DNA of 64,000 nucleotides. It comes from Phaeobacter italicus (GTDB taxonomy: Bacteria; Pseudomonadota; Alphaproteobacteria; Rhodobacterales; Rhodobacteraceae). Positions 44,620-52,063 of the stretch are shown piece after piece. Numbering within the stretch: the first letter of the stretch is position 1; each line of letters starts with the position of its first letter. The notes under the pieces are model-generated. The model ran no database searches. It was not told the DNA's origin and was given only the letters and a program-made list of their open reading frames with translations. The stretch is from the NCBI RefSeq assembly GCF_001258055.1, contig NZ_CVRM01000022.1:372001-436000 (forward strand). Reading direction: 5' to 3'. The position numbers were made by a program, and so were the translations under genes.

Positions 44620-46464
44620 TCACTCGTCGTCAGGCAGTGCGCGCACAGCACCCTTGGCGGCTGAGGTGGTCAGCATGGCATAGGCTTTGAGCGCGGTTGA
44701 GACCTTGCGCTTGCGTGGTTTTACCGGCTTCCAGCCCGCGGCGTCCTGGGCTTCGCGGCGCGCGGCCAGTTCGTCATCCGATACCGCGAGGTTGATGGTG
44801 CGGTTGGGGATGTCGATTTCAATGGTATCGCCGTTTTGAACCAGGCCGATTTCACCGCCTTCAGCCGCCTCTGGAGAGACGTGGCCGATCGACAGACCTG
44901 ACGTCCCACCGGAGAAACGGCCATCTGTCAGCAGCGCGCAGGCTTTGCCGAGGCCTTTCGATTTCAGGTAGGAGGTCGGATAGAGCATTTCCTGCATGCC
45001 CGGACCGCCGCGCGGCCCCTCGTAGCGGATCACCACCACATCGCCTTCTTTGACCTTGCCGGTCAGGATATCGCTGACCGCCTGATCCTGGCTTTCGCAG
45101 ACATAGGCCGAGCCGGTGAACTTGAGGATGTTCTCGTCCACACCGGCGGTTTTCACGATGCAGCCGTCGCGGGCGATATTGCCAAACAGCACCGCCAGAC
45201 CACCGTCCTGGCTAAAGGCATGTTCCTTGGAGCGGATCACCCCGTTTTCACGGTCGTCGTCCAGTTCCTTGTAGCGGTTGGACTGCGAAAACGCCTGCGT
45301 GGTGCGCACGCCGCCGGGGGCCGCTTTGAACAGTTCTTCGGCTTCGGGGTTGTTGGCGACCTTGATGTCCCATTTGGCGATGGCTTCGCCCATGGAGCTG
45401 GAGTGAACCGTCGCGCAATGGTTATGCAGCAGGCCCGCGCGGCTGAGTTCGCCCAGGATCGAGAAAATACCGCCCGCGCGGTGAACGTCTTCCATATGGA
45501 CGTTCTCGGTGTTGGGCGCGACCTTGCACAGGCATGGCACCTTGCGTGAGAGCCGGTCCATGTCGGTCATTGTGAAATCGACTTTGCCTTCGTTTGCGAT
45601 CGCCAGAAGGTGCAGCACCGTGTTGGTGGAGCCGCCCATTGCGATATCAAGGCTCATGGCGTTTTCAAACGCATCAAAAGTCGCGATTTCACGCGGCAGC
45701 AGGCCTTTTTCCTCGCCCACGTAGTGGCGCTTGGTGATGTCGACGATCTTGCGGCCGGCCTCGAGGAACAGCTGTTTGCGGTCGGCATGGGTTGCGAGGG
45801 TGGAGCCGTTGCCCGGCAGCGCCAGACCCAGCGCTTCGGCCAGACAGTTCATCGAGTTTGCCGTGAACATGCCGGAGCAGGAGCCACAGGTCGGGCAGGC
45901 GTTTTCCTCGATGTGCTGGACCTGCTCATCGGTCAGGTTTTCGTTGGCGGCGGCGACCATCGCGTCAACCAGGTCGATCTTCTTGGCGTCGAGGTCGGCA
46001 ATGTCGATTTTGCCCGCTTCCATCGGGCCGCCGGAAACAAAGATCGCCGGGATGTTGAGGCGCATCGCGGCCATCAACATGCCGGGGGTGATCTTGTCGC
46101 AGTTGGAAATGCAGACCATCGCGTCTGCACAATGGGCGTTGACCATATATTCGACGCTGTCCGCGATCACCTCGCGCGAGGGCAGGGAATAGAGCATCCC
46201 GTCATGTCCCATGGCGATGCCGTCATCCACCGCGATGGTGTTGAACTCCTTGGCGACCCCGCCAGCGGCTTCGACCTCGCGGGCGACCATCTGGCCCAGG
46301 TCCTTCAGGTGGACGTGGCCGGGTACGAACTGGGTGAAGGAGTTGACGATGGCGATGATCGGTTTGCCGAAATCATCGTCCTTCATGCCGGTGGCGCGCC
46401 ACAGGCCGCGCGCGCCCGCCATGTTGCGGCCGTGGGTGGAGGTTCTGGATCGGTACATTGGCAT
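44620..46464 (-). CDS. ilvD: Dihydroxy-acid dehydratase
   Basis: Dehydrates dihydroxy acids to 2-oxo acids in isoleucine and valine synthesis; an Fe-S enzyme. The 614-residue product has the signatures [11 protein letters not shown] (about 122), [19 protein letters not shown] (in part, about 195) and [18 protein letters not shown] (in part) near the C-terminus. ATG 46464 ([19 protein letters not shown]) fits the E. coli enzyme start; the frame extends 12 codons further without better evidence. Monocistronic, with AAGGGAA as Shine-Dalgarno. Confidence 0.97.
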
Positions 46465-46605: not shown

Positions 46606-47811
46606 TCAGGGCCGGGCAGGGGTTGGTGTCTCTTGTGGTGGGGGCGCCTGTGCTGCGGGGGCCGAAATCAGGTGATTCACGACAATCCCGACCAGCAGCG
46701 CCCAGAAGGCGGCTCCGATGCCGAAGAAACCAACCCCGGAGACCGTGACCATGAAGGTGATCAGGGCGGCGTCACGTCCCTGCGGCTCCTGCAATGCCGC
46801 GGACAGGCTGTTGGAGATTGTCGACAAGAGCGCAAGACCCGCAACCGTGGCAACCAGCGCCTTGGGGGCGATCAGGAACAGGCTGATGACAGTGGCGCCG
46901 CCAAGACCCACGATGATATAAAACACGCCGGTCATGACACCGGCCAAATAGCGGGTTTTGGGGTTTTCATCCGCTTCCGGGCCACATCCAATGGCTGCGG
47001 TGATCGCCGCGAGATTGAAGGTAAACCCGCCAAACGGGGCCAGAAGGAGCGATGCCAGACCGGTCACCACAAGGCTGGCTGACACTGGCGGAGCGTAACC
47101 TGCCGCCTTGAGCGTGACCACGCCGGGCATATTCTGCGAGGACATGGTCACGATATAAAGCGGCAGGCCAATCCCGATCAGTACGGGCAGGGAAAAGCTT
47201 GGCATCACAAAGACCGGCTGCGCCACAGACAGATCCAGCGGTCCAGCACCGGCAAAGCTGCCATCGCCAAGCCCCCACAATATGCCCACAGCCAGAACAG
47301 CCGGAATGGTATAGCGCGAAAAGAGCCGCCGACCGGCAACATAGGTCACAGCCATCGCCGCGACCAATGCGGTCTCGCTCTGAAAGGCGGAAAAGGCCGC
47401 GAGCCCAAAGGGAAACAGCAATCCCGCCAGCATGGCATTCGCCAGGGCATCCGGGATCAGCCGAGACAGCGCAGCAAACCAGCCCGTCACCCCGGTGAGG
47501 ATCAGGAGGGATGCACAGAAGAGAAACGCGCCGATCGCATCGCTCAGCGCGACATCGGTCAGGCTGACGGCCAAAAGCGCAGCACCCGGTGTTGACCAGG
47601 CGGTCAGGATCGGCATCCGGTAGATCAGTGACAGCGCAAGGCTGGTCAGCCCCATGCCAAGCCCCAGCGCCAGCATCCAGCTGTTGGCCTGCGCCTGACT
47701 GGCGCCGGAGGCCTCAATCGCCTGAAAGATGATCGCGACCGATCCAGTATAGCCCACCAGCACGGCAACCGCGCCCGCAACGACATGTGAGAGTTTCAAG
47801 GAACCGAGCAT
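46606..47811 (-). CDS. BenE-family benzoate/H+ symporter-like transporter
   Basis: A 401-residue inner-membrane transporter with about twelve helices. BenE family features are SWMLALGLGMGLTSLALSLIYRMPILTAWSTPGAALL (in part) in the first third, MPSFSLPVLIGIGLPLYIVTMSSQNMPGVVTLKAAGY (in part) in the middle, and FGGFTFNLAAITAAI. The substrate may be benzoate or another aromatic or organic acid; no benzoate catabolism genes are near. It is divergent from an XRE-cupin regulator, with a pair of palindromic operators between the two starts, so control by that regulator is likely. Confidence 0.87.
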   Translation of the reverse strand: MLGSLKLSHVVAGAVAVLVGYTGSVAIIFQAIEASGASQAQANSWMLALGLGMGLTSLALSLIYRMPILTAWSTPGAALLAVSLTDVALSDAIGAFLFCASLLILTGVTGWFAALSRLIPDALANAMLAGLLFPFGLAAFSAFQSETALVAAMAVTYVAGRRLFSRYTIPAVLAVGILWGLGDGSFAGAGPLDLSVAQPVFVMPSFSLPVLIGIGLPLYIVTMSSQNMPGVVTLKAAGYAPPVSASLVVTGLASLLLAPFGGFTFNLAAITAAIGCGPEADENPKTRYLAGVMTGVFYIIVGLGGATVISLFLIAPKALVATVAGLALLSTISNSLSAALQEPQGRDAALITFMVTVSGVGFFGIGAAFWALLVGIVVNHLISAPAAQAPPPQETPTPARP

Positions 47812-47854
47812 CCGGGTTTTCCTCTGGTGGCAGATCCGCTAGAGATCGGGTTGC

Positions 47855-47896
47855 GTGCGTTATAGCGCACAGTAGCGTTTGTGCGTTATAACGCAC
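47855..47896. promoter_or_regulatory. Twin palindromic operator between benE-like gene and XRE-cupin regulator
   Basis: Two 16-bp sites: GTGCGTTATAGCGCAC (47855-47870, one mismatch to a perfect palindrome) and GTGCGTTATAACGCAC (47881-47896, perfect). Their centres are 26 bp apart, about 2.5 helical turns. They lie 44 bases from the benE-like start and 65 from the regulator start, where a repressor would control both genes. The neighbouring XRE-cupin protein is the obvious candidate binder. Confidence 0.82.
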
Positions 47897-47960
47897 AAGA
47901 GGTTTTTGGCGCGCAGCAGCAAACAGTCTGCGCCGAGTAGAGATACGACAGGCAGCACGA

Positions 47961-48521
47961 ATGAGCGAAGACGGCATTACCTTGAATTTGCGGGAGATTC
48001 GACAGGATGCGGGGCTCAGCCTTTCGAAGGCGGCAGAGATCACGGGCGTCAGCAAGGCCATGCTGGGCCAGATCGAACGGGGCGAATCAAGTCCCACCAT
48101 TGCCACTTTGTGGAAGATCGCAAAAGGGTTTCATCTCCCGCTGAGCGCGCTGATCGGCGAAGCGGCGCAACCGGATCTCGCGGCTGGTGGGGAACGGGTC
48201 TTTCGCTCTGTCCAGTTTCCCGGTTCGATCGCGGTCAAGATGGTGTTTCCCTTTGATCCCGCGTTGGCGGCAGAGACCTTTCATGTGACGCTGCATCCCG
48301 GCCAATGCCATCTCTCCCAACCTCATGACAGTGGCGTGACCGAAGAGGTTTTTGTCCTGGAAGGCGCGATGGAAGTGCTGCGGGGCGAGGATTGGGTGGC
48401 CCTGGAGACGGGCCAAGGGCTGCGGTTTGCTGCCGATCAACCCCATGGGTATCGCTGTTCAGACAGCGGTGCGGCCTTTCTCAACATGCATCACTACCGC
48501 CGCGCGGACCCGGCTGGCTGA
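47961..48521 (+). CDS. XRE-family transcriptional regulator with cupin sensor domain
   Basis: A 186-residue regulator. The helix-turn-helix lies at about 10-64: LREIRQDAGLSLSKAAEITGVSKAMLGQIERGESSPTIATLWKIAKG (in part). The cupin domain is at about 105-178, with HPGQCHLSQPHDSGVTEEVFVLEGAMEV (in part). This HTH_3 plus cupin_2 layout is common in regulators of small-molecule uptake and breakdown. Twin palindromes upstream suggest autoregulation and control of the divergent transporter. The Shine-Dalgarno is weak (GGCAGC). Confidence 0.9.
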   Translation: MSEDGITLNLREIRQDAGLSLSKAAEITGVSKAMLGQIERGESSPTIATLWKIAKGFHLPLSALIGEAAQPDLAAGGERVFRSVQFPGSIAVKMVFPFDPALAAETFHVTLHPGQCHLSQPHDSGVTEEVFVLEGAMEVLRGEDWVALETGQGLRFAADQPHGYRCSDSGAAFLNMHHYRRADPAG

Positions 48522-51211: not shown

Positions 51212-52063
51212 GTGGACGATCCCAAAACGCTTGTGTCGACAGACTGGCTGATTTCACATCTCAAGGATCCGGACCTACGGCTTCTTGATGCGTCCTGGTA
51301 CATGCCGCACGAAGGCCGCGACGCCAAGGCCGAATATGAAGCCGCCCATATTCCCGGCGCCCGTTTCTTTGACATCGACGATATCGCCGATAACCGCTCG
51401 GATCTGCCGCATATGATGCCCCCGGTCGAGAAATTCATGTCCCGCCTGCGGGCCATGGGGGTGGGGGACGGCCATCAGGTGGTGGTCTACGACGGCTCTG
51501 GTCTGCGTTCCGCCGCGCGGGTGTGGTGGATGTTCCGCCTCATGGGGCAGACCAATGTTGCCGTGCTGGATGGCGGCTTGCCCAAATGGCAGGCCGAGGG
51601 CCACCCGGTTGAGGATCTGCCGCCAGTGATCCGGGATCGCCACATGACGGTGCGGGTGCAAAACCATCTGGTGCGCGATGTGACGCAAGTGTCCTCCGCA
51701 GCCAAGCTCGGTGACCACGAGATTATCGACGCACGAGCAGCAGAACGCTTTCAGGGCGCGGTTCCCGAGCCACGAGAGGGTCTGCGTTCGGGCCATATTC
51801 CCGGCTCGCGCAATGTGCCCTTTACCAGCCTGCTGAACAGCGATCAGACCATGAAATCGCCGGACGAGCTGCGCGCTGTTTTCGAACGCGCCGACGTCGA
51901 CCTCGGCAAACCAGCCATTACCACCTGCGGGTCAGGTGTCACCGCTGCTGTCCTCAGCCTCGCGATGGAGCGTTTCGGCAAGACCGATCATGCGCTCTAT
52001 GACGGCTCCTGGACCGAGTGGGGCGCCTTCCCGACACTGCCCGTTGCAACCGGAGAAGCCTGA
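51212..52063 (+). CDS. sseA: 3-mercaptopyruvate/thiosulfate sulfurtransferase
   Basis: Two rhodanese domains in 283 residues; the second carries the active-site loop CGSGVTA (about 231-237), the CGSG(V/T)T signature of 3-mercaptopyruvate sulfurtransferase. The first domain has the conserved LLDASWYMP and DIDDIADNRSDLPHMMP (each near the N-terminus). It transfers sulfur to thiophiles or cyanide. Start is GTG with AGGAGGCG upstream. Its stop overlaps the next start (TGATG), so it is translationally coupled to an aminotransferase; such an enzyme can feed it 3-mercaptopyruvate from cysteine. Confidence 0.93.
   Translation: MDDPKTLVSTDWLISHLKDPDLRLLDASWYMPHEGRDAKAEYEAAHIPGARFFDIDDIADNRSDLPHMMPPVEKFMSRLRAMGVGDGHQVVVYDGSGLRSAARVWWMFRLMGQTNVAVLDGGLPKWQAEGHPVEDLPPVIRDRHMTVRVQNHLVRDVTQVSSAAKLGDHEIIDARAAERFQGAVPEPREGLRSGHIPGSRNVPFTSLLNSDQTMKSPDELRAVFERADVDLGKPAITTCGSGVTAAVLSLAMERFGKTDHALYDGSWTEWGAFPTLPVATGEA

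Follow-up and report, generated by a model that had tools for sequence, protein, structure and literature searches.

Between the gene for a BenE-family transporter and a divergently transcribed gene for an XRE-cupin regulator, Phaeobacter italicus carries two closely similar palindromes, which raises the question of what protein reads them and which genes they control. We analysed a 64-kb stretch of P. italicus DNA, referred to here as the window. Direct reading of its letters bore out the sequence-only reading, which had described twin 16-bp palindromes, one of them perfect, with centres 26 bp apart. Site 1, GTGCGTTATAGCGCAC at 47855-47870, matches in seven of its eight palindromic pairs, and site 2, GTGCGTTATAACGCAC at 47881-47896, is a perfect palindrome that extends to a perfect palindromic 20-mer, TTGTGCGTTATAACGCACAA (47879-47898). 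The site starts, and hence the centres, are 26 bp apart, and both sites lie inside the gap between benE and the XRE-cupin gene. The features on which the argument draws are these:

44620-46464, minus strand: ilvD, dihydroxy-acid dehydratase, downstream of benE (NF009103, 1162.9 bits)
46606-47811, minus strand: benE, BenE-family transporter, counterpart of Escherichia coli YdcO (PF03594, TIGR00843)
47855-47870, no strand: site 1, predicted operator on the transporter side; letters read, conserved in 100 of 100 loci at four mismatches or fewer
47873-47878, plus strand: candidate -10 element TAGCGT of the regulator promoter, directly before site 2; a weak candidate, drawn from conservation
47879-47898 (core 47881-47896), no strand: site 2, predicted operator on the regulator side; letters read, conserved in 100 of 100 loci at four mismatches or fewer
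47961-48521, plus strand: XRE-cupin regulator, orthologue of E. coli SutR (YdcN) by sequence; HTH_3 and Cupin_2 domains, clade support 100/100, 1y9q the nearest structure

A SutR orthologue beside two palindromes

Chance statistics set the pair apart within the window. At up to three mismatches the pattern occurs twice, compared with 0.17 occurrences expected from dinucleotide shuffles. Sites 1 and 2 are also the sole near-palindrome pair spaced 16-60 bp apart in the window (at least seven of eight pairs matching in each, and at most three differences between the two), and 60 windows simulated with a first-order Markov model gave one comparable pair. Across the 4.05-Mb genome of the same strain, sites 1 and 2 are the only places within two mismatches; five further places lie at three mismatches, for a total of seven compared with 11 for a reversed-pattern control. 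The comparative evidence presented below is far stronger than these window and genome statistics.

Both flanking proteins could be placed in families. The transporter matches the BenE models well above their cut-offs (PF03594, E 2.4e-128, 428.7 bits against 27; TIGR00843, 369.7 bits against 203.4), and the E. coli K-12 record labels its counterpart YdcO a putative transport protein. The regulator, whose start codon at 47961 we took as given in the list of open reading frames, combines an N-terminal XRE helix-turn-helix (HTH_3, PF01381) with a C-terminal cupin (Cupin_2, PF07883), both above cut-off. No NCBIfam model reaches its cut-off for this protein, nor for E. coli SutR. The nearest solved chain is 1y9q (E 3.7e-38; 44% identical over 172 residues). 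In a midpoint-rooted tree of 36 rows, the window protein and E. coli SutR fall in one clade of 32 with a support of 100/100, and four paralogues fall outside it. The regulator is 41% identical to SutR over the aligned part. Its recognition helix reads VSKAMLGQIER, the SKAM portion of which is found in all 100 orthologous loci described below and in none of 49 XRE-cupin paralogues; among 27 sequences, residues V30 to R40 are invariant, save for one exception at L35. By these sequence criteria the window regulator is an orthologue of E. coli SutR (YdcN), and the earlier view of it as an uncharacterised XRE-cupin protein was mistaken.

The E. coli locus has the same layout. In strain K-12, sutR (ydcN) is divergent from ydcO, itself a member of the BenE family (TIGR00843, 703.8 bits), and the 91-bp gap between them holds GTGCGTTATAGCGTAC and GTCCGTTATAACGCAC, which are two and one mismatches, respectively, from the perfect site of the window. 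The two systems thus share protein architecture, recognition helix, a divergent BenE-family neighbour and twin palindromes in the gap; they differ in spacing, 32 bp in E. coli and 26 bp in the window, and in the sequence divergence of the regulators noted above. The sequence-only reading had not recognised the site as that of a named regulator; by this finding the twin motif is not an orphan and belongs to the SutR/YdcN clade. According to a table entry in PMC11196684, SutR acts through 'SutR boxes' to repress both ydcO and itself, and the part of PMC8464067 available to us describes the YdcN motif from ChIP-exo as palindromic. A literature search under SutR, YdcN, ydcO or BenE with XRE-cupin found no open paper describing the twin site, and a search with the motif letters, judged by title, found none either.

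Conservation of the pair with the SutR clade

Orthologous loci were collected from the genus (7/7 genomes), from the best 80 of 86 loci returned by a contig search, from E. coli and from three taxon samples comprising 149 genomes of the family, 142 of the class and 299 of the phylum. Removal of four exact duplicates reduced 104 loci to 100 non-redundant operator regions. Two loci were dropped, L007 as the same contig stretch as L035 and L114 for want of upstream DNA; L177 and L178, which lack the SKAM helix, were moved from the orthologues to the controls; and L034, a helix-turn-helix match only, enters no count.

All 100 loci have the two sites at four mismatches or fewer, 98 at three or fewer and 91 at two or fewer, in a set in which 83 loci are closely related core roseobacters and most were retrieved by similarity to the window protein. 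Among the 17 loci from beyond the core roseobacters, E. coli K-12 included, 16 have both sites within three mismatches. All 13 further orthologues from the phylum sample, accepted from 15 new hits by their SKAM helix in a decision made after helix and upstream sequence had been viewed, show a divergent benE and both sites, with L169 and L171 carrying them in a weak form (three to four mismatches). We also looked for relatives that keep both genes and have lost the motif: each of the 56 non-redundant loci with benE opposite the regulator retains both sites at four mismatches or fewer. The same procedure applied to the 49 XRE-cupin paralogues gave a best site of at least five mismatches in every case. 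The proposal that the palindromes form a regulator-operator motif in a divergent promoter region was therefore right, as the pair is retained across orthologous loci.

Orthologues are patchy outside the roseobacters. Five of the 149 genomes in the family sample have one (at least 55% identity), each with the pair, and the class sample yields an orthologue in 3 of 142 genomes at E 1e-30, the P. italicus genome included. One locus, L040, comes from a record titled Nocardioides marinus; its orthologue is roseobacter-like (80% identity) and sits among Leisingera loci, so the title looks mislabelled. Pattern matches also occur in 14 of the 144 family-sample genomes without a close orthologue (19 genomes with matches less the five above). 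Two of these 14 genomes, G026 (30 copies counted) and G028 (six), carry a palindrome of related sequence, often reading GTGCGCTACAGCGCAC and in most copies differing at the centre; some G026 copies match the degenerate pattern exactly, and in G028 two copies form a pair spaced 25 bp. These copies are probably a dispersed repeat, which makes the palindrome alone a poor marker.

Several proteins often have sites in the same divergent gap, and a different regulator might bind the palindromes. One such protein is the IclR-type PlaR, since the part of a PlaR study available to us predicts that the sutR and ydcO operons are among the targets of this protein. Against this stands the distribution of the pair: all 100 loci of the SutR clade have it, and none of the 49 paralogues has it upstream. 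Moreover, in 24 orthologue-bearing genomes, chosen from the available loci and tallied by hand, 63 sites lie within two mismatches, 44 at the locus and 19 elsewhere, compared with 33 for the reversed pattern; the pair adjoins the sutR-type gene, and sites elsewhere occur at control level only. We consider binding by another regulator very unlikely.

The reading that we favour is that the twin palindromes are operators of the adjacent SutR-type regulator, dimers of which would block both promoters until a ligand binds; comparative sequence makes this very probable. One regulator dimer would occupy each palindrome, making contact through the conserved helix SKAMLGQIER. The sites would lie over two back-to-back core promoters, so that bound regulator would block RNA polymerase and both benE (ydcO in E. 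coli) and the regulator's own gene would be repressed; a small molecule in the cupin barrel would then release the regulator from DNA. By analogy with characterized relatives, the window regulator most likely uses the twin sites to repress the genes on either side. The points that we infer are binding in P. italicus, promoter overlap, ligand-induced release and the ligand's identity.

Proposed promoter overlap, hairpins and spacing

Across the 100 loci, positions within the sites carry 1.4-2.0 bits, with lower values in site 1 at offset 2 (1.06), in site 2 at offset 5 (1.0) and in both sites at offset 10 (about 1.3); flanking positions are mostly below 0.6 bits, and a few more are near 1 bit. 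After the core of site 2, the letters AAG are retained in 100, 98 and 93 of the 100 loci, respectively. Before it, 88 loci have T at offset -8 and 84 have A at offset -7, and this conservation suggests that the TA may mark a -10 element. A consensus scan of 47780-47980 found no sigma-70 promoter. In some relatives a start codon follows closely behind a site, at 9 bp for E. coli ydcO and, as read by eye, 5 bp for L168 and 10 bp for L175. Start codons within about 10 bp point to transcription starts that probably lie inside the site or immediately ahead of it, so that each site would cover one of two start regions.

An alternative is that the palindromes are conserved promoter elements only: TATAAC would face outward as a -10 box on each strand, and the arms would be a by-product. 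The central TATA of both sites is indeed invariant or nearly so across the 100 loci, and TATAAC faces outward at site 2 in 82 of them. However, the arms GTGCG and CGCAC are retained almost as strongly as the centre (1.4-2.0 bits, with the one value of 1.06), and for E. coli ydcO, L168 and L175 the close start codons would give transcripts from TATAAC a leader just a few bases long. Bare promoter elements are in our judgement a highly improbable account of the sites.

The palindromes could instead work at the RNA level, folding in the two divergent leaders into a hairpin that terminates or attenuates transcription. A terminator scan does flag site 2 followed by AGGTTTTTGG as terminator-like, and 42 to 44 of the 100 loci, depending on where counting starts, have a T-rich stretch after site 2. 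The remaining 56 to 58 loci have no such stretch, and 96 of 100 have none after site 1 on the other strand; in addition, centre and arms are retained as letters, as expected of a protein site, rather than as varying pairs. We rejected the terminator or attenuator reading on the grounds that the T-rich stretch is not conserved across the 100 loci, and regard action in RNA as extremely unlikely.

The spacing between the sites is 25-27 bp in 82 of the 100 loci and 16, 31-37, 39 or 42 bp in the rest. A fixed helical phase between the sites was considered and discarded, because these spacings include both in-phase and out-of-phase values; rigid cooperative binding is thus unsupported.

Possible targets, ligand and ancestral role

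The gene opposite the regulator varies. benE occupies this position in 56 of the 100 loci, comprising 16 of the 17 from beyond the core roseobacters and 40 of the 83 within. All 44 loci in which benE is missing, defined as no tblastn match below 1e-20 in the stretch fetched, retain both sites at four mismatches or fewer, indicating that the sites do not serve the transporter alone. An ilvD-like open reading frame, recognised by its start, lies opposite the regulator in all eight benE-less loci that were mapped, making ilvD a possible further target of the regulator in such relatives. At L134, in a genome without a BenE match, the position is taken by a tRNA_edit-domain protein. From these sequences it appears that the regulator gene, at the least, is served by the operator, which may also have been reused for a new neighbour. 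BenE is encoded elsewhere in 6 of 10 genomes with a benE-less locus, at 39-40% identity to the window BenE, and no good site was found in about 4.1 kb around each of these copies (best sites, four to seven mismatches). We considered them as relocated targets and set the idea aside: with low identity and no good site, they look like another branch of the family.

SutR of E. coli is credited with a broader role. The part of PMC11196684 available to us attributes 12-16 sulfur-related transcription units to it, and that of PMC6094552 gives 15 gSELEX interactions in RegulonDB, whereas the P. italicus genome has a single locus with a site within two mismatches. In E. coli itself, the upstream stretches scanned for the three reported targets pfkB, fliZ and cysE hold best sites of eight, five and seven mismatches, respectively. 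Either SutR has another binding mode at these genes, or they are indirect targets, or the sulfur role is not part of the conserved core; a site search may accordingly miss the sulfur regulon. A further E. coli K-12 match, CTCCGTTATCACGCAC, differs from the site at three positions and is found a short way upstream of yniD (L208:1128-1143). Among the 19 sites found elsewhere in the 24 genomes, GTGCGTTATAAAGAAC recurs in three related genomes and GTGCTGTATAACGCAC in two, and this recurrence suggests that some may be real targets. The three GTGCGTTATAAAGAAC copies, each with two mismatches (G352:C1:3065866, G382:C5:2281099 and G520:C1:3357453), come from one genus, and all three genomes have the orthologue; they may mark another target of the regulator, or else part of a conserved coding sequence. 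On the evidence of site searches, the conserved regulon looks local. Near the SutR orthologue, the window also encodes a 3-mercaptopyruvate sulfurtransferase (51212-52060; NF008557, above cut-off), and at L067, L089 and L101 an open reading frame with a similar start is, by eye, the next sizeable one on that strand. This neighbour may reflect a sulfur link or mere synteny.

Characterized XRE-cupin proteins offer precedents for the proposed mechanism. According to the text of PMC7901475 available to us, those of Pseudomonas aeruginosa bind palindromes, probably as dimers, act as repressors and bind beside their own genes, with PauR, at 29 genes, an outlier; neither SutR nor BenE is named in the main text of that paper. 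DbuR is described in the accessible part of PMC12724383 as protecting a 20-bp palindrome together with a predicted -10 element. The Pseudomonas repressors (ErfA, PsdR, PauR and others, and DbuR) resemble the window system in their helix-turn-helix and cupin domains and palindromic sites, and in the repression and binding beside its own gene that are predicted for the window regulator, and differ from it in having their own consensus sites and targets. An XRE-cupin activator, NceR, also exists, to judge from a paper title in the reference list of PMC12724383. For SutR, the same table entry of PMC11196684 that gives repression of ydcO records activation of ypfN, also through SutR boxes, and the E. 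coli record classes the protein as a dual regulator, which leaves pure repression uncertain.

Among the paralogues scanned, 9 of 49 share a recognition helix, SRSMVSQIERG, and a palindrome of their own, TTCCGYCATGACGGAA, over or near the start codon (L012, at C32:234606-235142 of the P. italicus genome, L013-L016, L018, L147, L153 and L157). At the start codon of L012-type paralogues, ATGACGGAA would read M-T-E. From its position, TTCCGYCATGACGGAA is likely to be a second autoregulatory site. The L012 match carries one in-frame TGA in the P. italicus genome, which may lie past the true gene end.

The closest structural relative bears on the ligand. The chain 1Y9Q is an XRE-cupin protein of Vibrio cholerae with a recognition helix identical to that of the window regulator, and its solved cupin pocket contains D-methionine, according to the part of PMC7901475 available to us. 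L170, the most similar available locus to 1Y9Q (68% identical), has a divergent benE and twin sites. Six residues of the window protein (S119, H122, E128, G135, H162 and Y164) show no variation among 27 sequences, suggesting a conserved pocket or metal site. The sequence-only reading had proposed that the cupin would sense whatever the transporter carries, with aromatic acids as the compounds to try. By analogy with 1Y9Q, a methionine-like compound would be as good a first ligand candidate as an aromatic acid.

The tight link between site, helix and locus indicates that the conserved target of SutR comprises the regulator gene and its divergent neighbour. More speculatively, and with the odds in our view against the proposal as a whole, the ancient job of SutR may have been that of a one-locus switch, covering the regulator and the gene opposite, and not a sulfur regulon; the BenE/YdcO cargo would then be methionine-like or otherwise amino-acid-derived rather than benzoate, and in Ruegeria-type benE-less genomes the operators would now control ilvD. 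Judged by sequence conservation, the twin sites are almost certainly where the adjacent SutR-type regulator binds, a solid but fairly ordinary gene switch that is widely conserved beside such regulators. The link between site and locus puts in question how far the reported sulfur regulon represents the core role of SutR. The twin sites supply a precisely defined operator, open to testing, for a clade of regulators present in E. coli, in Alphaproteobacteria and elsewhere in the phylum, and the operators retained where benE is missing offer natural experiments on operator reuse.
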